A stretch of 64,000 nucleotides of DNA, from positions 496,001 to 560,000 of the forward strand of contig BCIV01000007.1 of assembly GCA_001600055.1 (NCBI GenBank), read 5' to 3'. The DNA is from Filobasidium wieringae. Its lineage: Eukaryota; Basidiomycota; Tremellomycetes; Filobasidiales; Filobasidiaceae. The stretch's first letter is position 1. Every line of letters begins with the position of its first letter. Positions 10,133 through 48,643 of the stretch are shown here, piece by piece. Position numbers and translations under genes: made by a program. A model generated the notes under the pieces. It did not search any database. It was given only the letters and a program-made list of their open reading frames with translations, and was not told the origin of the DNA.

Positions 10133-12249
10133 TCACCTCCTAGTACCTGGAGGATAGCTTGTACCTGGAATACTGGGAACGTGCTCTTCATGAGTGACTT
10201 CCACCTCCCGCGAAACCTCGATCACGACATCCGGAGCGGCTACTAGCTGATGAGGGATTCCTTGGAACGGGCCGGAGAACAGTGTAATCTAGGAAAGTAA
10301 AGGGTGCGATGGTATCAGATAGGAAAAACAAAGATCAAAAAGCCAACAGATGTCCGCTACTTACCGCTGGAGGGAGAGGCGCAGAGGACGCTTTTTCAGA
10401 ATGATCGCTCTTCCGCTTCAACGCAGCTTCAAGTTGACTCAACGGCGAGGTAATGAAGCTATCGTCTCCGAACTCTCGCCTTTCATCGTCGACGTTCAAG
10501 ACTCCAATCCTCGTCTCCCTAGGTCCGCGATGGTCAGACTCCTCGAGCGGTCCGTCCAGATCGAACAGGTCGTCTTCGGGTACGCGTTCATTCTCTTGAA
10601 TCGTTCCGCGCTCACGGAGAAGTGTAACAAGCGTTCGATGTTCGTAAGAATGATGCGAGCGTAATTGGCTTAACGGGTCCTCAAAATCGTCTTCCTGGTG
10701 TTTAGCCTTTCCAGTCTGTATCGTGCCGGGTCTCATTGACGCTCGTCGAGCATCAGGACCCACTTCGAGTCCGCCGTGGGTCACTCTCCTCTTTACGAGT
10801 CGATGAGCAGGATCTTCTTGCGCTTCCGACAGGGAAATTGGTAGGTAGAGCTGACAATGCAGATATTATAAGTGTTGACAAGCTTCGATCGCGTCTGACA
10901 TCAGGCTCACCATGACGGAAATTATATTGCTCATCCAGAAAGAGATCACCGTGACGAGATAAAGCAGATCGTTTGAAAGACTTCGAAATCGATGAAGGCA
11001 CCAAATTTGTAGCTGAACTGCAGCCGATATGTCTTTGACTTACGGATTCATTAAAAGCGCTTTTGCTTCAGTTGTCGCCGAGTACCCTTGTGCGAGCAAC
11101 GATCCCGCTAGACCTGCCCTGAAGATCGTACGGATCAAATTCAACTCTGCCATCCGTTGAGAGTTTGGTCAGGAGCGGTATAATGGCTATAGCGAATATT
11201 GGCTGACCTTCGAAGAATCGCAACTTCGATATCACGTCCTCGCTAGCTCCGTGAGCTTGTACCTGTTCAGGCGCGAGTCAGGCCGGATTTAGCGTCGATA
11301 GCGATCGAACAACGGTGAAACTTTCCTCACCTGACGAATGAATCCGGGCAGATAGTAGACGAGAATCAGACTGAAAAAGCTGTACATAATCTACCCTTTG
11401 ATGTCAGCTAAGATTTTTCCTCGAGCGCATCGATGCTTACACATTGATGACCCCAACTCCACCTTCGAACAAGAAGATCCTGATGTTCTGTTGCATCACG
11501 TCTGTTTCGCCTGCAAAGGGAACGGAAGCATGGGCGATGGTAGCCACCAAAGAGAGGACAACCCAGACCATGAAAATGTTCGAATTAAGGTACCGAGTGA
11601 TCTTGCCCGGTCTCTTTCCGCCTCTCACACGTGATTCTGAACTGCGGGAGTGTTTCATGCTCTTGAGAAGAAAAGTCCAGTAGAGCGCTTCTTCTAGGTT
11701 CACAGCATCTGATCGCGAGTAGACTCAAGATCAGTCGATCGTAAGAGAGAGACAATCAGGACTTGAACGAGGCCTACCGTAGAGACAGAATGAAATGACC
11801 AAAACGATATCCCCAACCTTGTATAGGTGTTGTTGATACTCCGACCACAAGGGGATCGGAAGCGGAACCATTCCTATCGGTGCTGGTAGCAAGACCCACC
11901 CTTGAACATACTTCTGAACGGTCAAAAGGATAGCCCAGATGGAGAACCCAGTCATAGCGAGGGCTAATAACCACTAATTTTGCCGGATAACATGAGGAGC
12001 TGAGAGTCGGAAATATGTAACGACAGGTCGCGAGCTGACTCACCACCATCCCTGTTCGAACGGCGTTCTGTCTTCTAGGGACAAGGCAACGGCAGCGATC
12101 GAATTTCCACTTTGGCGTGTCGTCAGCGGCTTCATCGTTCTCCTGTGAACGAAGACGATTACACTTACAGCATGGATCATGAGATACGTAGGGATAGAAC
12201 TTCCCAAGAGCGCAGTGATCAACATGTTAGTGGGCGTTGTGCTTGCCAT
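10133..12249 (-). CDS. Seven-helix-like (GPCR-like) membrane protein, copy 1
   Basis: Ten exons: 12169-12249, 12044-12109, 11778-11973, 11443-11708, 11331-11390, 11208-11262, 11044-11146, 10911-11017, 10365-10816, 10133-10288, giving 513 residues. Hydrophobic segments include LITALLGSSIPTYLMIH, WLLALAMTGFSIWAILLTV, VGDIVLVISFCLY, FMVWVVLSLVATIAH and VINIMYSFFSLILVYYL, followed by a hydrophilic tail of about 280 residues. It is paralogous to the gene at 46605-48643: WKFDRCRCLVPR, NLEEALYWTFLL and GASEDVISKLRFF have direct counterparts there. The start at 12249 is chosen because the paralogue begins at the same place; an in-frame ATG at 12501 would add 84 residues. I recognise no named family; a receptor or sensor role is only suggested by topology. 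The last helix of copy 2 is not evident here. Confidence 0.72.
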
Positions 12250-13652: not shown

Positions 13653-16600
13653 TTAATTCAAAAATCCACGGCATCTTGCGGATCCACAGAGACAGACGAC
13701 CTTGTTCTCAGGCGATTCAATAGGGAAATGATAGTCGTAAGTTATTTCGTCTCCCGGTCCTATACTGGTTTTAGCGTAGATCACGATCTGTCATTTCAAG
13801 TCGATAGAAACGATCAGTACTCAAGTCGAGATAGCAGTCGAGCCAGTAACTCGCCTTCTTCTCCCCGTTGATCGTAATGATCTTGGCCGTGCAATTGGGA
13901 GTGCAACAATGATTGATCAATCGAGCCATACTACCCTTTTTGGTCGCATCCACCACAGCATCATCATCCACCCTAAACAAGTAGCTGCTTCCGATACCGA
14001 TCTTCTCATACCACTTTTCTCGGATATCGGCCACTTGAGCTCGAATGACTTCTCCCACATATTCAATGACCATCTCCCCTGGTCCGATAGCTTCCGCTGC
14101 ATATAATCCCCAGTCGTGAATTGGCGAACGAGAGAACTTCAAAGCCTTTTTCCTCGTTCTCAATTGGTTGAACGCAAAGACGTCGGAATCCGCCTCGGCA
14201 GACTTCTTGCTCTGCTCGATTCCCTGTACGAACCGACGGGTCGCTACTCTCGCCGATCGGGAAGAAGCAATCACAGGTTGTCCGGTAGACTGGGAAGGAT
14301 CGATCTCGACCACCGCTCGGTTACGTTGGGGAAGGTAGGCCGATTTGGCCACTTCGGAAACTTTATAATACCCGTTTGAGCGGGCACAACCGGACGGATG
14401 GATATATTCCTCTTCCTCTTCCAGCTCGGGCTCTTCTTCAGGTGCAGCATGCATCAATCCGTCGACGCCGACCTGTGGCTTTGTTTCAGGGAGAGGGGGA
14501 AGAGGTGCATTATTTAGCTTGGCTTCTAGGACCAGTTTGAGCAGATACAAATCTTCCTCATCTCGAGCTACTCCGGCTCTGAAGGGATCGTTTTCGACCT
14601 TCTGCTCGATTTCCACCTCTTCAACGGTGATAGGGATGATAGTCTCCTTATGAATAGGAATATCGACGACTTCAACCGTATCTTTCTTCCCCTTTTTCGC
14701 CCGTTTCTTGGGCGGCAGATTCTTCTCCTCCTTGATAACGATCTTTCGCTTCTTCTCCTCCTGGACGACAACTCGCTTTTCGCCTTTTTTGGCAGGCGGT
14801 CCGAACTTCTTTTTCGTCCGTGGGGCAGGAGGAGGCGAGTCAGGTTCCGATAAAACGGATTCAATAGTCTCCATTTGAGCGATATCCTGAATAGGCTCCG
14901 GGGTGGCCACGATCTCTTTAACTGTTTCCAGTGTTACACGTACGTCGGGGACCTGCGCGACTTCTGCTACAGGTTGTTCAGCAGGACGCGGGATCGCCGT
15001 AATGGGTTCGTCCTCGATATCCATCCCCATCTCATCATCCGTCAAAGCCGGCTCCGGTTCAAGCTTAAGCGTCGATTCCGCTCGCGCCGTACTCTCGCTC
15101 TTTTTCTCCATACGAGTCGTTGGAATGGCAAAGGATGGCTCTACGCCGTCAACCTTCATCGAAGCTTGAAGGGTTTCCCCCTTAGCCTTCATTGCAGGAC
15201 GAATTTTCGGCTCAATCTTTCCGTGCTGGAAGTCCTTGAATGTGACCAACAATCTCAGACATCTTTCTGCGCCCTCTTCGTCCTTGAACAGAGTGTACCA
15301 GCCTTCGACATCTTGTAAAACCTGAGATCAAAAGATTTTTTCAGCTTGACGAAGAAAGATCTAGCGCTCTCGATTCGATTTGTTTTGTTCACTTACCTCT
15401 AAGCATCCCTTGAAGTGACGCTTCAATTCAATCAAGGGATTTTGCGCCTGGATAGAAGCTACGCGAGCAGTGAAGATGTAAGGATGTCCGTTCTTGATTA
15501 GGATATCTCGAACGCTATCTTGAGTTGTGGCACGAGGTGCGGTCGGTGGCACTTGAGTGGATTTGACTTTGGGAGGTGTGACTATCGTTTGTCCGATCAA
15601 TCGACCACGTCGCTCTTGACGCTTCCTTCGGTCGACAATGACATCTTCTTCACTGTCATTTTCCTCTGAATCGCTGTGGAGCTCAGGAACCAGAGGGTCA
15701 TTTTTCTTGACAAAGGATGAGGCTCCATTGGGCAGGTCTACATAGATTCCACTCGGCCGTTCACGCTCGAATGGCGCATCCGTAAAGCCGCTATACGAAG
15801 CTTGTGACGACAACGAATGCCTTGCTTTCTCCCTCTGAGCGTTGAATTCAGCCATCTGTTTGATATGTTGGTCCCTCAGATGTTCGTTATGAGCGCAATG
15901 TGGATTGAGGTGGTCGAAGAAACCATGTACACCGCTACGCAGGTAAAACGGCTTCTGGGGGAGCCGAATAAAAGCCTGTCGGCCATAGGCTGAAACAGAA
16001 GAGCGGTATGGGATCGAACCATGTGGAGTTGAATTATACATAGGACGGTGAGGGAGATGCGGATGCCCGGGGAATGGTGCCGGTTGTGCTTGACCATGTA
16101 CGAAGCCAGGTTGCTTCCCACCGCCAAGATAGTCGTATATAGGTAGACTATGCTGCATTGACAGCGACTGAGCCAAGGTTTGCGAATTGGAGTGTGCAGG
16201 CAAGTATGGGGGGCCATCGGGTCGCAAAGCAGGCGTATTTGCAGTCTGTGAATTATTTCGCCCTGACGGAGGTGGAGGAGGAGCACGGTTCTCAGGAGGA
16301 GGTGGAGGTGGTGGGGGTGGAGGTGGTGGCAGCAGGATAGACGGGGGTGGTGGGATAGGAGCCGTACTAGCCAGATCAAGAGAAGTGGGGATAGTAGGCG
16401 GTTCAGCCTTGGGTTTCAATCGCGGCGATTTGCCGGCTATGACCAATTTGAACAGTTCCTGAATTTTGACGCCAGTTCCGTCCAAAACTACTTGAACTCG
16501 CTCGTTTGGAACCTTATGTGCAGGTCCGATACGAGTATTGTGTAAGGTTTTTACGACGTATTGCGCGAATTTATTGGCTGCAACGACCTCGCCAGATTCG

Positions 16601-18777
16601 ATATCTGCCTTCCATTGTCTTCTCTTCTCGGTGGCATTCTGATGACTGCGGGGTGGCTCCAGGGGATACCGACCTTTAAACGTCACACGACAGAGGCCGC
16701 TCGATGCTCCGGTCAAGGTGGAGAGCTGAATTTCGACATCGGCAATATCGACAGTGCCTTTGACCTTGCCATCATCATAGACGAAACCAGATCTGATGTC
16801 CTTCAATCGAGACGCTACCTCGACCTGGCTGGTCAGATGACTGAGGTCAAATATGCATACAGCATTTGCTGGGCGGGGCGCAGTCGAGAGAATACTCCAC
16901 GGCTATGTATACGTCAGGCCATCAACAACGATTGCACTAGGCGCGACAATGGGCTTACTCACATAACTTGGTACAGGAACTAGCCCATCTTTCCTGTTTC
17001 TCTTCGACCCCGAACCTTGTATCCTTTTCTCCTGAGGTATTCTCAATCGCGCGTCCTTGACTTCAACCTCCTTCCCGTTATCTAACTGCCCATCGTACCG
17101 GCGTACGATCTCAGTAAGAACGGGCTTGTTCTTGTATTTCCGAGGATTTAGTTTTCGTTCCTCTTTGTCCAGCTGAGGATCGGCTAAGACCAGGTAATTA
17201 CCTCGGCCAATCCGTCGATGAACTACGGATGGAGGAGGCGGTACAGTGTGCCCCTCTTTCGGTGGTGTTTCGTTGTCGTGTTCCGAACCTGAAGACCGTG
17301 GTCGGACAAGAGTATCTCTCTGCCGACGAAGATCGTTCAAGTCACGTCTAAAATGAAAATCAGGCGGTTGCTCAACAAGCTCGGCGGTTGCCTCATCATT
17401 GCCTTCGCCATGAGATATTTTAACCGGCTGTATCTTCTCCGCGAATCTTGATTCAGATTTTTGTTCAACGTGTTCTCTCTCAGAGTCGCGGCGTGACCTA
17501 GATCGAGATCGAGATCGAGATCTAATTGATCTTCGGTCCCGCTTCGTATCTCTCATTATTCGATCTTCGTCGTCCGACCAGTCCGACTCGGACAGATATC
17601 GGTTCTCTCGTGTATCAGTCGATTTCCGTCTCTTCTTCTCCCACTCCATGTTTCTATCCCTATTCCGACTGCGTGAGCGGCTTCGCGGTCGATATCGAAT
17701 CGGATCCGGTGAAAAGGATGAGTCACGGTATCTCCGTCTTGGAGAAGGACTTGGACTATAACGATTTCGTCTTCTATCCCCCTCGCGAAATGAAACTCTC
17801 CTTCCGTTCGCCCCTCGCTCACGGTCCAACGAATCTTCGTAACCTCTTCTGCGCTGACGAGGTGGAGACCTGTAACCTCGGTCATCATAGAACGAATCTT
17901 CTGAAGGGGACCTGCGATGGCCACGCCGTGGGGGCGGTATATCGATATCTCTTCCGGCAGGCAAGGATCCCGTAATAGACCTAGGTGATCGATTGCTAGC
18001 TATATTTTGTTTGGATTTCTTCACAGGAGATGCGTGGAAGGAGAATTTGGTCGATCTGGAGGAATTTGGTGGGGTAGAACCTCGAGGGAAGGATTTAGAA
18101 GAGGTTGCGGATTTGAGGGAAATGGAAATAGTAGAGGCTCGCGTGGCTGGGATGTCGATTTTGGTCAGACCTAATCCGGTTCCAGTCGTCGAAGTAGCTG
18201 TGTCAATATCATCTAAACTTGGAATGAATGAAGGGACGTATTCGGAGTGTTTGCGGCCTCTCTTCCGCTCGACGGATTTAGCGATTCCACTTTGCTTTCC
18301 TGAAGAGGTGGAAGTATGATTCTCGTTTCCATTTGAGTAGCTGGATTGGCTGTTTGGGAGATCCTGTCCAGTAACTGCATGTCCGTTCGTGTTTGTCACA
18401 TTCGCTGACGGTATAAACTGTTCTGAGCTGTTGAGCACCCCACGCTGTGATTGGGAAATGTTTTTATGCTGAGGTATAATGATTGGGATTGATGATGGTT
18501 TTTTTATCGAGCGAGAACCACTGGCTTGAGAACTAGGTCCATGTTCGTTTGTTGCGAACGATCTTTCATCTCTCGATGAGATGGGTAAGAAGCTCGGACG
18601 TGCCGGAAGCCCGTTACCTATCTTTTCGAAAATGTTTCCAGGCACTGTAGTTTTGCGGACCTCTGGTTGTGAACGGCTAGTGGATGTCGAGGTCGTTGCC
18701 CTTTCATCATGTATTGACCCGTTCGGTTTACCGATGTCCAAATGGGGGGGTAGTGGACGGTTCTGCCATGGAGGCAT
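13653..18777 (-). CDS. SET1: COMPASS histone H3 lysine-4 methyltransferase Set1
   Basis: Four exons: 16963-18777, 15397-16902, 13855-15321, 13653-13787, giving 1640 residues. As the COMPASS catalytic subunit it methylates H3K4 at active genes. Residues 1-605 are disordered and Ser/Arg-rich, with RS dipeptide runs. Two RRM-like units follow: one with [17 protein letters not shown] (about 615-690), one spanning the exon 2/3 junction (FTARVASIQ to CLRLLVTF). Between them is a long poly-proline segment. After an acidic/lysine-rich linker come the N-SET region ([19 protein letters not shown]) and the C-terminal SET domain: [36 protein letters not shown], and post-[16 protein letters not shown] ending at the stop. 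The last intron (13788-13854) is GC-AG; only this junction gives the conserved INGEKKIVIYA. It is longer than yeast Set1 (1080). Confidence 0.95.
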
Positions 18778-19327
18778 AACGAGATATCTAGAAATACCCT
18801 CAGACTTGTATCATGTGGCGTCCTGATTGAGGGCTCTGATCAGTTGGATGAAACAGTCGGTGCTTGCACTAAGCGATATTTACCTGTCTTCCAAGAAGTT
18901 GGTCAGTCCAGCTTACTTTCTTTCGGCTAGCAAAAGACAGGTCGGAAGATCGATCGTGTGGGTTTGGCGCTCAGATCAGCAAGAGTGTAAGCCTTTGAGT
19001 ACCAGAGAGCCGAAGCTAGCATGATGCTGTAGGCACAAGACCGATTCTGAAGCTATCAGAAAGTATACACAACTCTCAGAAGTTGGTTGTTAGTTGGGCG
19101 CGACGTGATTCAAGCGCGCTCAATCTAAGTAGGTCGACCTCATGGCACGGCCGATCGGGGTCAGACACTTCGTCTCTCGCGGACAGTAGCCAGCTGAAAG
19201 GACTCCAACCCGACAACCTAAAGGCTAGCTGTCGGTAAGGATATCAAAGAGCGCAAGAAGCACCTCGCTTTGTCTCCTAGGGCACCGTGAACAGCCATGC
19301 CAATCGCAAAGTGATGCTGTGTTCGAA
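18778..19327. promoter_or_regulatory. Divergent promoter region SET1 / SIN1
   Basis: A 550-bp gap between opposed start codons. No coding exon is recognised; it must hold both leaders and promoters. No distinct motif was identified. Confidence 0.5.
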
Positions 19328-22300
19328 ATGGCCTTGATTACGGATAAAGCGTAAGGCTATGGCCCTCATGCTCATATCTTCGTTATGAAACTAATGTATC
19401 CTGTATGTTTTGTAGGTATCTCCTTCATTCTTTACGTCTTGCGCACCTCAGAACCACCAATGATCCTCATTCGGCACGGATCATTTCCATCTCTCCCACA
19501 ACATTATCTTCCAATGCATACGTTAAAGGGAGCGGACTGGCTGATCTTGATATCTGGCCAGAGATAGCATCGGGGTTGGACTCGCCTCCACTGGAAGTCG
19601 ATAAACTTCTCGAAGAAACAGATCGTAACAGCGAAACGAAACAAAGTGAAGATGATTACAGCAACAGACGAAGAAGGTGGAATGGGAAAGGAAAGGAATC
19701 CGATTTTACAGGTCCAATACAGCCTGTCAAGCAGGGGGACTCGCTTCTATCGGAGGAGAAGGATCCGAACGTAAAGCTGAAGTACAGTCAAACTATCGGT
19801 CGGAAGTCCTTATTCCAGCCTGGTATGCAGGTCAACGCTCGACCTGGACCTCCAGCAAGAGGAGACTCATCGGTCGCAACATCTGCAACGGTTACTCCCA
19901 GAGCTCAGAAAGTACTTCACAACGCCTTGACGGAGAATGACTGGGAAACGCCGCGTGCAGGAACGCCAGGTGCTCGGCGAGATAGAATACGTTCAGTCAC
20001 GACTGATGTTGGCCCCAATGGATTAGTGACACGATCAGAGCTGTCCTCTCCTGCAAATAGCAGTATGTTGAGGACTCCTGTCGCAAGAGCGTTAACGAGC
20101 AGAGCAACCCCAACTCAAAAGACGATCTCGCGGATAACTAGGCCCAGAGCAGATTCTGCGCCAATGGTTGTGATTTCCTCCCCCTCCGCCAATGACCGGG
20201 ATCTGTCCAGTCAACAACGCAACCAGGAGTATGACGAGAGTCACTCGCAAACTCCGCAGGTCAGATATCGACCGCCCTTTATCTCGATGAAGCCTAGGCG
20301 TATCACGAGCATGATAGCTGCTCGGAACAAGGACAGCGCGTTCTCTCCCGCAGCCATATCTTCCGTGCTCGAAACTGCCTACCGTGGACGTCCGAAAAAT
20401 GAAGGAAGATTCGATACAGATTCTGGGGAAGGAGAAATCCCTCCGCCTGGAGCGGATCCTCATACACTTGCCATGCAAGCTCAGTACGGAAGTATCTTGG
20501 AGCAAGCTATGATGAGTCAGAGCTTTGTTACCGGGATAACGGAAAATTCGGGAATGATCTCCAGCTCCGGTATGGGGACTAGTTATGGGAACGGATTTGA
20601 GGGAATATATGAAGAGGATGAAGAGGACGAAGGAGAAGAAGGGGAGAGTCAGCGAGACATGAGAGAGGTCGGGGACCGGCAGCAAGCAGCCAAATCGATG
20701 CTGATGGACATCGGATTGGGTCCCCCCGTATCGATAGGAAGTATGGGTCATTTCCCGGGGACGGATACTAGACCGAATTCAGAGGTTGGATCAGCGGAGC
20801 ATCATGCTGCCGAGCGATTTAGTGGGGAAAGCAGACGCAGCACGATCTTCCAGCCCGAGACAGAAAATGCAACAATATTCGAGAAGCGAGATGTCCAGCA
20901 TCTCAACGTTGCGTCGAGTCAGCCAAAGGTGTCCGGATTAAGCAAGTTGCTGAACCCAGATGAATCTAGCGGCGAAGTTGGATCAGCTCCAGGGAACCCA
21001 TTCGCACGTTACGCATTCGTCCCGCCCCCTACTGGAAGTTCACTTCCTACGCTCTCCTTGTCCATGTACTTCCCTTTCTCAAGCGAGCCGTTCAAACCGC
21101 TGAAGGTGGTTGTCAGGAAAGAAGTAACTGTGGAAGAGCTAATCGGGTGGTCTCTGCATCAATATCTTGAAGAGGATCGGTCACCGGGACTTGAAGAAGA
21201 TCACGATACCGGTTCTAATGCTACTCTTGATCCTGAGGTATGGTATACAACTTCAGGATGGGCTCTACGAATGGTCGAAGACGACGGAGAGGTAGATGAG
21301 GACTTCCCGGGTGAGTTCGCAAACCACAATTTCAGAATGCAAGCAGGAAAATACTGAACATCACACTGCACGTAGCTCTCGATCGCGAAAGTCAAGTCAA
21401 TAAGTTTTCTTTCGGTGGATTTGCGGTAGTAGAAGCTTCATCTGCGCAGAGTAGGTCGTTCTTTCCCTAAGCCCGTCGCATGTTACCTAACTAGCCTGAG
21501 AACGATAGTCGATCAAAACCTTGCGAAAAACCCGCTAAAACGTTCAGGAAGCGCGACGCCTCATCTGCAAACCCAGTCACGCTTAGGTGTGAACAATATG
21601 ACAGCAAGTACCTTGTCAGCGACTGGAGGAAGCACCGTCGACTCGCCGTTCGATTCACCAGGATTAGGCCCATCCTCGCGAAACGCTCTCTTGAATACGC
21701 CAGGTGCGAACGCCTATACGGGACTCAGCATGTCGACCGCCTCGGCAGCAGTAGGAGGCGTAATGGTGACTCTCAAAATTCGCGTCATCGTTGCGTCAGA
21801 TGTTCAATTTAGCACATCCCTGAAAGTGTGAGTTCGCTTGCGTGTGCTGGTTTTCACACTTGATTTCTGATATATGTACTATTTCGTTCAGTCCGTCCGA
21901 AATGTATTTTGCAGATATTACAGAAAACCTAATCCATAGACGGCATCTCAATCCCGCTGATCCATCTGAGTGGGTTTTGGTTCTGGGGGATCTGTCCATG
22001 GTCCTTCCCCTTGATCGAACGGTCGAAAGCTTGATGGGAAGCGTGGACTTGGCCCTTGTTCGAAAAGGCTGGGCGCAAAAGCATGGTTTGGCTGTTGGCA
22101 AAGCGAACGAGCGACTTGGTGGAGACCCCAGCAGTGAGCATAGCATGGGTGCCGGCCGATCCTTGAACGATTACTGATTTCACGACCCTGGCTCATTAGC
22201 GTCTATCTTCAAGCGTCGTTCGGATCTACCACGGCCCAGGCTGAGCGCGGGCAGAGCCGATTTCACTTCAACCTATAAGAAATTCATTGTTCAGCGTAAG

Positions 22301-42894: not shown

Positions 42895-43445
42895 GTTGAT
42901 TGCCTGAAACTTTCAGATCCCAAAGGAGCAAGATGAGAGAGAAGGATTAGGGGATTAGCGATCCGAATGATCGACCGGGGAGGGCCGGTTCCGACAAGAC
43001 TTTGATTAGAGTTCAACGATCACTGCTGGTTGATTGAGGAGGGCTGATGGCGCAGGATGGAGTGGGAGTGGTCGACCTGTGTTGACTCGAACCAAAGAGG
43101 TCAAAACAGGTTGAATGAGGATCCAATGCGATTCAACGCGATGTTGACAACGCGATATTTCATATTCGACCTTCATCTTGGCCAACAGCCATAGCTCAGA
43201 ATGCCCAATCCCATCCTATTCAGGACAGGCAGCGACGACATTTACCACTGGTCGTGAGAAGTACTTTCATCAAACCAAGATACGACATGTCGCTAATCCC
43301 ATAAATTCCGGTCGACTGCTACTAACCCGAACGAACCCCGAAGTTGCTGAGCCGAAGCAGTGAGCTATATATGTCCGGGACTTTTCCGATCCATACGCTA
43401 ATCAGGATCGTTGTACTGCATCACAACCTCAATCAGCAAGGAAAG
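42895..43445. promoter_or_regulatory. Divergent promoter region Q-rich gene / COG7
   Basis: 551 bp between opposed starts; no exon recognised. It should contain both leaders. A repeated GCGAT/GATGTTGACAACGCGAT motif lies near 43135-43157. Confidence 0.4.
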
Positions 43446-46424
43446 ATGTCGAATTCGAATGAAATCTCTAATGGCGAAACAAGTCGTCCGTCGACCTCGA
43501 AGACGGACCTGCAGTCGCTCGCTTCTTCTCTCGATGCATCTGCCTCCATCTCGGAATTCATCAACCATGCTCTTTCCTCCTCTCCCTCCGACCTAGATCT
43601 GACTACTTTAGATCGGTCCGTCTCCGACTTGCTAGCTCAATTGAGTATCCTCACTCAAGATACATCAGGGCAATTGGAGAGGAGCATTCACGAAATATCG
43701 CGAACGGTTCCGAGGTTGACGTACGACCTGCAGTATATGAGGGAAAGCGCTGAAGGTGTCCGTAGATCATTGGAGGGTGTGGAAACAACGATCAAGGGGA
43801 AAGATTCTAGTCACCTCGTCAACCCGCAAGCGGCTCGGGAGCAAGATTCGACCAACTCAATCCTTGATCGACTCACTCATTTGGATACGCTCAAATCCAA
43901 CCTCTCTGACGCCCGCTCAGTACTTCGGGAAGCAGAATCATGGTCGACTCTCGAATCAGAAACTCTCACTTCGCTGTCCCAAGGCCGCTATAGACAAGCC
44001 GCAAACAGACTAGCAGAAGCCAGCGAGAGTATACATATGTTCCAAAGGAGCCCGAAGGAATACGATCTACGGAAAACCCTGCTGGTCAGCTTGCAGAATC
44101 AGCTAGAGGCTGAACTCGATGGGGTCTTGGCTAGCATGGCATCTGGTGTACCGGTTTCGCGTCGACCCAGTCAGGCTCAGAACGAAAAGCAGGAAGAAGA
44201 AGGGGAGAAGGAGAAAATGACGCTTCCTGAGTTACTCAAGATTTTCGGGTTGATCGAGCGTGAAGGAGAATACCGGTCGATCTACTTCAATGCTAGACGG
44301 AAAGGAGTGCTGGATGCGTGGAACAACGTGGATCTCGTAGAGAGTCAAGGGCAAGGAAGTGAAGGCCGATCTGCGGATATAACCACCCTCAACGAATGGT
44401 TAACGACCTTCTACGAGACGTTCCACAACACAATCCAGACGGAATCGGCTTCCATGAAGACCATCTTCCTTGACCCCGTGCCTTCCCTCGTCGCTTTCTT
44501 TCAGACGACTTTCGAGGCTCTCCAACCTAGCTTCAGTCAGCGACTCGCCCTGGGCGTAGAGTATCATAGTAAGCAAGGAGGTGATGGGGAGTTGAACCTT
44601 CTCCTGGGTGTTTGGAAGAGCACCACGGTTTTCGGGAAACAGATCCAGGCCATCCTGGATAAACTTTTCTTTGAGACTCAGCCGGCTATCTTGAGCGCTT
44701 CGCCGGGGCAACAACAAAACACTTCGCCTGGAATCATCACGGGAACGAAATCGGGCCGCTCTAGGTCAGGTAGCGTTTCAACACTGAATGAACCGAGCAA
44801 ACGATCCACCAGACGGTTCTCTCGATCTTTCGGCAACGGGGGCATATCCGCGACCTCTTTATCAAACGCATTAGCAAAGCCCGATCTAGACGCGGTTCCC
44901 ACGGGTATGAGTACGGTAGAATCTATCACGGGGCAGTGGGATGCGGTTCTCTATGAACCTTTCTTGCAATACCAAAACGATTACATGAACTTGGAAAAGC
45001 GATACATGCTCAACTTGCTTCGTACGGAGGGAGTATTCGTCGAGCCTGCTTCCCTTGCAGGTCGGACGCCGGGGGAACGATTGTTGACTAAGGGACTGAG
45101 GTTGATGAAGATTGCCGAAGATGGGTTGGAAAGGTGCATGACGTTTACTCTCGGATTCGGGCTAGCGGATTTATTGGAGGCATTTGGTTATGCTATGGAA
45201 AGCTTTGTTGGGGATAACAAGGGACTGCTCGAGCTCAAAGGGGGAGTAGGAGCGGTCCAAACCGAGAGTGAGAGGAATAGGCAGACGGCCGGAGGCAGGG
45301 ACAGTTTCGATGAGTTTGACGATCTGGAAGGGTTGGATGGAGTCGCGATGGACAGCACAAGCGACGAGCTCGCCACATTCAAGCTCGGACTCGGCGTTCT
45401 CAGGAGCTGCGCTAGATTGAAAACGTGCGTGGATGAATACAGCGTCAAGGTGGACCAGGCGATCGTAATCACTTCAAATGGGTTGAATGCTCTCGCACAG
45501 TCGATCGCGTTGCCGATAGACACTCCTTTAGCGGGGGTAACCAAAGGAGCTCCTGCACTGCTCAAGCAATCCGGACTGAACCAGCTGGCTTTCGTTCGTC
45601 TTGTCGATGGCCAGTCCTCGATTGATGGTCTGAGGCCCGCACAGAAGGCAGTATATGAATACGCTAAAGACGCTCAAATTGCTACCCAGAAAGCGATCCT
45701 CAAACCGATTTTGGCCCAGCTGGAAGGATATCCTGGACTTTCGGCTTGGGCTCAACCGGATAAGGTGGCAAGACGCGGAGAGCTGCACGTCCCGACGTTC
45801 TCGCTGTCTCCTACGGATATCATCTCTGCGGTCACCGAAGGACTACTTGACCTTCTGAGACTGTTTGAAGGGTTCGCAACCGACGGTGGTCTTGCGTTTT
45901 CGCTCGGAACTTTGCCATTTGTAGATGTCGAGATGTTGTCAACCATGGCGCAGGCAGCTCAAGATGAGGTCAATTCAAGGCCTCAACATCATCGAACGAT
46001 ATCTAACGTTGGATCGTTCGCTTCGATGAATGACAAGCTCAACCTGAACAAGCCGAACACCTCGCCTTCGACGGTGGAACCGGTCTTTCCGAGCGATGCC
46101 GTTCTGTCAACTTGGGTCTCGTCGACGACATCGGCGCTTTTGGACCAATTCACAGCCAAGATACTTCCTGAAATTACGAAACCGTTGACCAAGCACGGAG
46201 CGTCTCAATTGGCAACGGATTTATCTTACTTGTCCAACGCGATGCGCGCGATGGATGTGAAGTCGCAGCACCTGGAATGCTGGCGCGAGAGCTGCGAGGC
46301 GAAAGACGTTTCTGAACTCAAAGAGATTATGCGCCAGGAAAAGTTCATATCCAGGTGTTCCGAAGCGGTGGATATCGCGCGGTACGTCGGCTGGTTACGG
46401 GGATGGAACATGGATCAATTATGA
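43446..46424 (+). CDS. COG7: Conserved oligomeric Golgi complex subunit 7
   Basis: Intronless frame of 992 residues, unusual in this intron-rich window. COG tethers retrograde vesicles at the Golgi; COG7 belongs to lobe B. Family features are the N-terminal helical region ISEFINHAL and LDRSVSDLLAQLSILTQDTS, VPRLTYDLQYMRESAEGVR, then DTLKSNLSDARSVLREAESW, and a C-terminal region with LATDLSYLSNAMRAMDV and CSEAVDIARYVGWLRGWNMDQL. The start at 43446 (MSNSNEISNGE) is chosen because the upstream in-frame ATGs lie in leader-like sequence before it. A Ser-rich insertion (about residues 430-480) is probably disordered. Confidence 0.92.
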   Translation: MSNSNEISNGETSRPSTSKTDLQSLASSLDASASISEFINHALSSSPSDLDLTTLDRSVSDLLAQLSILTQDTSGQLERSIHEISRTVPRLTYDLQYMRESAEGVRRSLEGVETTIKGKDSSHLVNPQAAREQDSTNSILDRLTHLDTLKSNLSDARSVLREAESWSTLESETLTSLSQGRYRQAANRLAEASESIHMFQRSPKEYDLRKTLLVSLQNQLEAELDGVLASMASGVPVSRRPSQAQNEKQEEEGEKEKMTLPELLKIFGLIEREGEYRSIYFNARRKGVLDAWNNVDLVESQGQGSEGRSADITTLNEWLTTFYETFHNTIQTESASMKTIFLDPVPSLVAFFQTTFEALQPSFSQRLALGVEYHSKQGGDGELNLLLGVWKSTTVFGKQIQAILDKLFFETQPAILSASPGQQQNTSPGIITGTKSGRSRSGSVSTLNEPSKRSTRRFSRSFGNGGISATSLSNALAKPDLDAVPTGMSTVESITGQWDAVLYEPFLQYQNDYMNLEKRYMLNLLRTEGVFVEPASLAGRTPGERLLTKGLRLMKIAEDGLERCMTFTLGFGLADLLEAFGYAMESFVGDNKGLLELKGGVGAVQTESERNRQTAGGRDSFDEFDDLEGLDGVAMDSTSDELATFKLGLGVLRSCARLKTCVDEYSVKVDQAIVITSNGLNALAQSIALPIDTPLAGVTKGAPALLKQSGLNQLAFVRLVDGQSSIDGLRPAQKAVYEYAKDAQIATQKAILKPILAQLEGYPGLSAWAQPDKVARRGELHVPTFSLSPTDIISAVTEGLLDLLRLFEGFATDGGLAFSLGTLPFVDVEMLSTMAQAAQDEVNSRPQHHRTISNVGSFASMNDKLNLNKPNTSPSTVEPVFPSDAVLSTWVSSTTSALLDQFTAKILPEITKPLTKHGASQLATDLSYLSNAMRAMDVKSQHLECWRESCEAKDVSELKEIMRQEKFISRCSEAVDIARYVGWLRGWNMDQL

Positions 46425-46604: not shown

Positions 46605-48643
46605 TCAATCCTGCTTGGCAACGGTAACGGTGTTCATGACGATTCTCAAATCCGGTGGCAAGTCCGAGTTGCCGACGTCCAAGGGGCTACGGAACTCCTG
46701 CAACTGTTACGCGATGAGGCGATCAGCTCAGGCTACTGAAAAAAACGTGAGTACTCGCATCGGGACTCACGATCCTGGGAGGCGCAAGGGCGTGTTCCTG
46801 AGGTCTAGCATGATGATCCATCGAATCGGCTTCACCCTTCCAACTACCCTCAGGCTCAGACGGCTGTCGGTTGGCGAAAGGCAGATCGATCTCGCTCTGA
46901 TTATGCCTCGCGGCCAATTCCTGGACGTCTTGTTTCTCGAGGTTGAGACGGTCCCCGAGCACACTCCATGGATCCCCACGAGCCATGGTAGGGGAATGAT
47001 AAGAAGGTAGGGAGGAGGTGGAGTTGGGAGGGAAGAGCGAATCGATAGGGTGAGGTTCTTGAGCTGCGACGTAGACGTGGTTCATCCCTTGCGAACGTCG
47101 GCCGGCTCCTCTAGGAAGAAGCACCTGTATCCTTCTGCGGTATCAGCTCCTGACCAATACACTGCTCACGAATCCTGAAGACTCACAAAGAGGGAAGCGA
47201 TCATACTAGTAAAGATCCCAAAGATCGCCAACACGTAGAACGCGTCCACCCAGAACACATGATGATTGATCGAAGCGTGTTTCGTAAACCCATCCGCCGA
47301 TAGGATCAGCAGCACGACGGCATAGAGTAGACGGAACGAGGTCCTTTTATAGCACAACGAGGTGAAATCGATAAGCAACGAACGGTCGGATATGAGGAGG
47401 AAGGATGTACCTTGCATTGTTCATGGTCCTAAAGTAATTTAATTTCCCGATAACTTCGGAACTAGCTCCTTGCCTCCTCTACGCGATCGGAAAGTAGTCA
47501 GGATACCGTCCACTAGTACTGTAAGATTCAGACTGATAGCATGAACCGAGGACTCACCGACTCAGCGATGAAGCCAGGAAATTTTACACTAAGACGCAGC
47601 GCTCGAATGAGTGATGGTCTTTGACTGGCCGAGTGATACGGAACCTTACCAGACCCAGAGCGAACCGGCTGTCATTCTGTAAAACCACCCATAAGGGTAT
47701 CAGTTCGATTGAGGTTCGTCCTCTCGAACGGAAACGAAAATACTTACATGAGAGAGATGATACTCCCGGTAAAGAAGATGTTCGTCTCCATCTACCCATT
47801 CAAACGCGTCACACCTCAATTTCTACGTTACAGACGTTACGAACGGAAACCCAACCCAGAACTCACCCTAGTCAAAGTGCCCAGATCGATACAAGCCGCT
47901 CCGAACATGATCGCGCTACCCCCCAAACACCCAACCAACCAGATCTTGAAATACACGCTCCCCACCCACCCCTTCTCCGCCCGACCACCTCCATTGGGAT
48001 GCCCCTGGTGAGAGGGTTTCGAACTGACGATCTGTAATAACCAAGCCCAGAAGAGGAATTCCTCGAGATGGACGGAGAGGAGGAGTGACCAGCCGACGGT
48101 GATGATGTAGTATGAGATGTGGAAGAGGAGCTTGTTGTGCGGGGAATAGAGTTGGTTGGGTTTGATCGTCTGGTTCAAGGGGGGCCAAGAAGAGGGTCAA
48201 GCGGGGCAGTCGCGTTGACGGAAGAGAAGGACTTACGACGCCGGCGACGGGTAGGTAGATGTAGTATTCGGTGTACTTGACATAAGACGCCAACGTATCC
48301 GCCGTCGCAAACTTGATCGAAAACGGGGAGGGGGGGCTAGATCAGTTTCACACGTCCTTTCGGCATCCTTTACCCCGTTAACTCTTGGCCTCCTGCCCGG
48401 TGTACTCACATAGAAAGCACTCCCCAATAAGGCCCAGACGATGAAGGCTCGGAAGAACTCTTTTCGCTCACGAGGGATGAGACAGGCGAATTTATCGTAC
48501 TTCCACATGTGCCAGAGGATCATGATCGTTCCTATCACCGCGATCACGGAGGAGAAGAGCTGGGCGGTCGGTCTGTCGAGACCAGGTGAGCGAGCGTCAG
48601 GAAGAGACGGAGAGGATAAGGATACCTACGAATTGTGACACAT
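46605..48643 (-). CDS. Seven-helix (GPCR-like) membrane protein, copy 2
   Basis: Eleven exons: 48630-48643, 48410-48572, 48237-48311, 47867-48169, 47748-47791, 47650-47676, 47558-47588, 47411-47478, 47187-47343, 46771-47124, 46605-46703, giving 444 residues. Seven hydrophobic helices are visible: SSVIAVIGTIMILWHMW, FFRAFIVWALLGSAFY, ISYYIITVGWSLLLSV, WLVGCLGGSAIMFGAA, IFFTGSIISLIMTAGSLWV, FRLLYAVVLLILSADGF and FYVLAIFGIFTSMIASLF, then a hydrophilic tail of about 150 residues. The very short N-terminus (MCHNSPTAQ) and Arg/Lys distribution suggest outside N-terminus and cytoplasmic tail, as in GPCRs. It aligns over most of its length with the protein at 10133-12249 (WKYDKFACLIPR, HLEEFLFWAWLL, GASSEVIGKLNYF). 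No named family recognised. The first coding exon is 14 nt. Confidence 0.8.

Follow-up and report, generated by a model that had tools for sequence, protein, structure and literature searches.

An unnamed family of putative seven-helix surface receptors in Filobasidium wieringae and related yeasts

Two loci of Filobasidium wieringae, gene A and gene B, encode proteins of one seven-helix family for which no name was found. They are located 34 kb apart on contig 7, within the window (the whole stretch of 64,000 nucleotides analyzed, positions 496,001–560,000 of GenBank contig BCIV01000007.1). Based on the loops and the predicted fold, the family is proposed to consist of orphan surface receptors that may couple to G-alpha subunits, a reading given about an even chance of being correct.

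A recent survey lists 17 classes of fungal G-protein-coupled receptors (GPCRs) and one candidate class, DUF6534, with many classes absent or reduced in Basidiomycota according to its available text (PMC12842992), and the accessible part of a 2026 review gives only 6 of the 17 classes as characterized (PMC13308352). The family described here matches no class profile that was checked, its nearest fold in weak structure models is that of Ste2, and it is present in several copies across separate yeast lineages. It may represent either a branch of class D that has gone unseen or a lineage related to the pH sensor of the phylum. If the Ste2-like reading is true, such receptors would be present in Basidiomycota, a phylum reported to be without Ste2-type receptors.

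Structure of the two gene loci

Gene A (46605..48643, minus strand) is a divergent member of the family, with a spliced model of 11 exons and 444 aa. Exon 1 (48630..48643) carries the start codon and the predicted extracellular N-terminus, and exon 2 (48410..48572) encodes helix 1, the loop motif WKYDKFACLIPR and the start of helix 2. Exon 3 (48237..48311) completes helix 2 and encodes a portion of the first extracellular loop, and exon 4 (47867..48169) covers helix 3 with HLEEFLFWAWLL, the second inner loop and helix 4. Helix 5 is spread over three small exons: exon 5 (47748..47791) has its start, exon 6 (47650..47676) its continuation, and exon 7 (47558..47588) its end with FPGFIAES. Exon 8 (47411..47478) encodes the third inner loop, GASSEVIGKLNYF, and exon 9 (47187..47343) helices 6 and 7. 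LLPRG and most of the cytoplasmic tail are encoded by exon 10 (46771..47124), and the end of the tail by exon 11 (46605..46703). All exons are on the minus strand.

Gene B (10133..12249, minus strand) has 10 exons and 509 aa, and has two close paralogs, C and D, on other contigs. Comparison with two further copies in the genome settled its splice model. The N-terminus and helix 1 are in exon 1 (12169..12249), the loop motif WKFDRCRCLVPR in exon 2 (12044..12109), and helix 2, the first extracellular loop and the start of helix 3 in exon 3 (11778..11973). Exon 4 (11441..11708) encodes helix 3 with NLEEALYWTFLL and helix 4, exon 5 (11331..11379) helix 5 with LPGFIRQ, exon 6 (11208..11262) the third inner loop GASEDVISKLRFF, exon 7 (11044..11146) helix 6, and exon 8 (10911..10980) helix 7. 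LYLPIS and most of the cytoplasmic tail are found in exon 9 (10365..10850) and the end of the tail in exon 10 (10133..10288), all on the minus strand. Every intron in the models of both genes has GT..AG borders, and the frames of A, B and C are intact.

Three motifs that an earlier note on this DNA had quoted as common to the two proteins are present in both: WKYDKFACLIPR, HLEEFLFWAWLL and FPGFIAESRRQGASSEVIGKLNYF in A, and WKFDRCRCLVPR, NLEEALYWTFLL and LPGFIRQVQAHGASEDVISKLRFF in B. The relatedness is real, as shown by a profile score, an hhalign comparison and shared introns. The A sequence scores 162.9 bits over positions 1–298 of a hidden Markov model (HMM) of eight B-type proteins; with the same HMM, the best of 1000 shuffles of A in ten-residue blocks gives 15.6 bits, the best of 1000 full shuffles 4.9 bits, and reversed A −2.3 bits. 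Alignment of A with the B-type proteins by hhalign has a probability of 99.9 (E-value = 1.9e-31, 298 columns), at an aa identity of 21%–24% between A and the other eight members. Two introns are located at the identical alignment column and in the same phase in A, B, C and D: the one before the LYLP/LLPRG exon and the one before the last exon. Two further introns of A and B have the same phase and lie 1–2 alignment columns apart.

All nine introns of gene B are common to B, C and D. Synonymous sites are saturated in comparisons among these three, with dN of 0.22–0.38, and the few amino acid changes beside saturated silent sites indicate that the B-type proteins have been kept.

Members of the family

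A and B had been described as a pair. They are indeed relatives, but a pair is too small a number: the genome (19.76 Mb, 33 contigs) holds at least four members, the count being a lower bound taken from the best-scoring candidates. Paralog C is on contig 1 and paralog D on contig 12 (787580–789735). Just after helix 1, D reads TGA in frame where a tryptophan codon is otherwise conserved; the rest of its sequence is intact and conserved, and the TGA may represent decay or an assembly error.

Profile searches outside the genome yielded six related proteins. Four are from Naganishia, namely QFC21_005249 from Naganishia friedmannii and three from N. vaughanmartiniae (P0003–P0005, QFC22_005745 to 005747); the other two are FFLO_01867 from Filobasidium floriforme and an unnamed fragment of 209 aa (P0006). 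The order Filobasidiales includes both F. floriforme and N. vaughanmartiniae. The three N. vaughanmartiniae loci have consecutive locus tags and are likely a tandem array.

Some of the public annotations look incomplete. Helix 1 and the inner loop that follows it are largely missing from P0003 and P0004, the model of P0005 begins even further downstream, and that of P0001 is interrupted by a gap in its first outer loop.

In a tree of nine sequences, the Naganishia copies form one group (96/95) and B, C, D and the Filobasidium protein another (95/99), inside which B, C and D come together (83/90). A forms a very long branch. Because the grouping follows lineage, gene copies seem to have been gained independently in each, as far as the sequences indicate.

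Searches with A, with alignment A1 and with alignment A2 gave no named protein outside Filobasidium and Naganishia, in a protein search that needs shared five-residue words, that scored the best 7997 candidates by words for A1, and that was length-limited for A2. The search with A alone gave no match among 6079 candidates, although P0002, present in the same database, aligns with A at a pairwise E-value of 1.6e-22; a missing match in that search is therefore weak evidence of absence. The family as seen so far is one of Filobasidiales yeasts, and it may be wider than found, including basidiomycete members below about 30% identity.

Predicted topology and fold

The earlier note had proposed a receptor topology with a short N-terminus outside. 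In the six members analyzed, eight uncharged residues precede helix 1. Lysine and arginine residues number 4–7, 3–12 and 4–5 in the first, second and third loops placed inside, and 1–2, 1–2 and 1–4 in the corresponding loops placed outside, with loop limits set from the structure model of P0002. These charges, together with seven helices in two AlphaFold models, fit the proposed topology with the N-terminus outside and the C-terminus inside, and none of the results points to a different one. About seven helices, with the N-terminus outside and the C-terminus inside, is what the available text of the fungal survey gives as the mark of a candidate GPCR (PMC12842992); the family has this arrangement on loop charges and on the two models.

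A simple hydropathy scan displays the seven expected segments in only one of six members (P0001). The scan overlooked helix 6 in A, helix 3 in D and P0002, and both of these helices in B and C. False segments appeared in the first outer loop of four members (B, C, D and P0002), of which B and C also had false segments in the tail. Hydropathy alone thus settles no helix number, and it is the structure models, predictions themselves, that decide for seven.

The P0002 model has helices at aa positions 6–30, 43–73, 93–146, 182–218, 224–262, 267–302 and 312–337, and a hairpin at positions 75–85 in the first outer loop. The P0001 model shows seven helices at matching places, without the hairpin. The helices of the family fall within about 300 residues. 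Both models are weak, with six sequences in the alignment, a mean pLDDT of 50 and 47, and a pTM of 0.42 and 0.39.

Comparison of the models with GPCR folds gave a divided answer: receptor structures head the lists and the nearest structures mostly have receptor folds, but the Foldseek E-value is never below 0.001 and the models are weak. Ste2, the class I (class D1) pheromone receptor of fungi, is the first solved fold by VIA-align for both models, with scores of 18.2 against 16.0 in one and a tie of 13.4 against 13.3 in the other. A library of viral folds gave no match at an E-value of 0.001 or below. A receptor fold is probable for the family, as judged from these models.

Comparison with known protein families

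The earlier statement that no named family has this signature held up. There is no convincing Pfam match, all named relatives are annotated as hypothetical proteins, and no PDB sequence matches with an E-value below 0.3. Pfam searches with 2, 3, 6 and 10 members gave scattered matches only; with 10 members seven families were hit, each by one of the ten, the best being the Rv2743c family (E-value = 0.0026, one member). NCBIfam gave four matches for the 10 members, each in one member, with a best E-value of 0.004. PDB searches by sequence yielded none for A alone, a best E-value of 0.31 for A1 and of 0.61 for A6. A confident match to a known non-receptor family was thus not found in Pfam, NCBIfam or PDB. 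Among viral contigs, none of 38 pattern matches was confirmed. No name for the family was found in a literature search mostly outside subscription papers, nor, within the same scope, were the locus tags FFLO_01867, QFC21_005249 and QFC22_005747.

Receptor families were considered individually. The class A GPCR motifs [DE]RY and NPxxY are absent from all nine proteins scanned, and 7tm_1 is not among the Pfam matches of the 10 members. Neither STE2 (PF02116) nor PalH (PF08733) is among the matches of the 10 members up to an E-value of 10. Scans of the genome with the PalH, Git3 and STE2 models gave no match, but the controls gave none either, and these scans therefore carry little weight.

Ste3, the class II pheromone receptor, has a short N-terminus, seven helices and a long tail, as does the family. 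The STE3 model (PF02076) however matches two other loci, contig 9:680458–681447 and contig 5:736536–737167, which are the STE3-type receptor loci of the genome, and none of the A–D loci; it is absent among the Pfam matches, and hhalign against pieces of the genome's own Ste3 gives a probability of 0.1. Ste3 was therefore rejected.

Microbial opsins (class IX) carry a retinal-binding lysine in helix 7; in none of the four proteins A–D does helix 7 contain a lysine, and this class was also set aside. The DUF6534 proteins, basidiomycete seven-helix proteins without a proven ligand, are comparable to the family in this respect, and the available text of the survey proposes them as a new basidiomycete GPCR class (PMC12842992). 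The DUF6534 model (PF20152), however, falls at one other locus of the genome, on contig 6, and not at A–D, and is absent among the matches of the 10 members. This excludes it as well.

The C-terminal tail

The tail had been called large and disordered. Much of it is modeled at a pLDDT below 50, but B, C, D and their relatives have two conserved stretches in it. The first, B361–380 (SHHSYEHRTLVTLLRERGTI; 10599..10658, minus strand), has a mean majority fraction of 0.85 over eight proteins, and no other 20-residue window of the B-type protein is as well conserved. The second, B473–492 (PDVVIEVSREVEVTH; 10187..10246, minus strand), has a mean majority fraction of 0.67. Coordinates of both are derived from the exon table.

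The B361–380 pattern is present in all eight B-type proteins and not in A. It is mostly inside a helix predicted in both models, at aa positions 406–436 of P0002 and 334–360 of P0001, with a block pLDDT of 53–64. A search of PDB by sequence with the B tail gave no match. A conserved helix in an otherwise loose tail is what a docking site for a regulator would look like, and B361–380 may be such a site. B, C and D also have VKRR/VRRR blocks after helix 7.

Proposed function and alternative interpretations

The suggestion of an undescribed receptor-like family stands in part. The family appears to be undescribed, its predicted topology is that of receptors and its fold is probably so, but DRY, NPxxY and the full Ste2 motif are absent and the structure models are weak. 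In the proposed mechanism, the proteins would sit in the plasma membrane and bind their signal either within the bundle of helices or at the first outer loop. The signal would be small or lipid-like, since only about eight residues are outside at the N-terminus and no extracellular domain is present. Binding would move the helices, and the basic inner loops would relay the signal to a G-alpha subunit of the cell. Potential signaling partners exist, as the genome has three G-alpha loci, besides one weak match that fell short of the cut-off. The tail helix at B361–380 would probably serve to dock a partner controlling the timing or the end of the signal.

The helix 3 motif EExL(Y/F)W has two glutamates that are invariant in 10 of 10 sequences, and in alignment A2, which has four sequences, helix 6 opens with two conserved arginines. 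In class A receptors a helix 3 arginine forms an ionic lock with helix 6, as given in the available text of PMC8942848. The glutamate and arginine pairs could form a reversed version of this lock, which is offered as a proposal only.

The strongest alternative, though clearly the less favored, is that of a seven-helix sensor independent of G-proteins, like PalH/Rim21 or Rra1, in which the bundle would sense pH or lipid asymmetry and the tail would recruit linker and ESCRT proteins. In the accessible text on Rra1, this seven-helix protein is reported only from Basidiomycota, and basidiomycetes are described as without PalH/Rim21 homologs (PMC4393102). It has 7–8 predicted helices in a transmembrane region of residues 1–290 (PMC4393102; PMC10421798), and an R/K-rich block right after its last helix is needed for localization and function (PMC10421798). 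Its authors point to glutamates as possible pH sensors; in the same available text, none of the three G-alpha proteins of Cryptococcus is required for the pathway, and a gpa2 mutant is slightly pH- and salt-sensitive (PMC4393102).

The family shares with Rra1 the predicted seven helices, the basidiomycete origin and the charged stretch after the last helix (PMC4393102; PMC10421798). The helices within about 300 residues, the VKRR/VRRR blocks of B, C and D, the invariant glutamate pair, and the location of the most conserved stretch in the tail all favor a sensor of this type. The family is nevertheless set apart from Rra1 by description: Rra1 homologs are highly homologous even in Ustilago and Puccinia in the available text (PMC4393102), yet the searches, limited in candidates and length as described above, named only Filobasidium and Naganishia. 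Orthologs so widely homologous would be expected to surface in the A, A1 or A2 searches, and their absence argues against A or B being an Rra1 ortholog, not against a distant tie. The absence of PF08733 among the matches of the 10 members speaks against PalH.

A bolder form of the receptor reading, considered rather doubtful, is that the family is a new fungal GPCR class of Basidiomycota whose helices are arranged as in Ste2 (class D), with duplications within Filobasidiales and a tail docking helix of its own. In addition to the VIA-align result, which is clear in only one of the two models, nine of nine family proteins keep Leu-Pro where helix 7 reaches the inner side, and four of nine LP-(I/V)-Ser. 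The corresponding motif of Ste2 is LPLSSMWA in the available text of PMC8942848; the rest of it is absent in the nine proteins. The hairpin in the first outer loop of the P0002 model is also reminiscent of Ste2, whose own loop takes part in the dimer interface. The family differs from Ste2 in having no sequence match to it in Pfam or PDB, and in having about eight outer residues, whereas the structural match of the Ste2 chain begins at its residue 41. Furthermore, in the accessible parts of two sources Ste2 is reported from Ascomycota only (PMC12842992; PMC13308352).

Seven helices with the N-terminus outside also fit lipid-handling and transport families such as RTA1. That A and B are seven-helix membrane proteins of such a kind and no receptors is unlikely, and less likely than a sensor of the Rra1 type. 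RTA1 genes are present in the genome, one of the 10 members matches NCBIfam TIGR00704 (Na/Pi-cotransporter related, E-value = 0.004), and the A6 profile matches a PDB chain of a Na/dicarboxylate cotransporter (E-value = 0.61). These weak matches are however single and are not repeated in other members, and a long tail with conserved motifs, such as that of the B-type proteins, is more often seen in sensors. The RTA1-like model (PF04479) matches six other places (contig 6, contig 7:784438, contig 9, contig 12:607030, contig 16 and contig 21), none of them A, B, C or D, and is absent among the matches of the 10 members; RTA1 itself is thus rejected.

That the likeness of A and B is due to chance, or that the genes have decayed, is almost certainly wrong: the in-frame stop of D is in its favor, but the shuffle controls, the hhalign result, the shared introns, the saturated silent sites beside few amino acid changes and the intact frames refute it for A, B and C.

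Neighboring loci

Near gene B, on the minus strand, a frame of the Set1/COMPASS type, carrying N-SET and SET domains, is found at window positions 13771–15327, with a frame rich in Arg/Ser repeats upstream on the same strand (16903–18810). A CRIM-domain frame on the plus strand (19348–21357) probably encodes the Sin1/Avo1 subunit of TORC2. Converging on gene A, 180 bases away, is an uninterrupted frame of 1032 aa with similarity to COG7 (43326–46424, plus strand).
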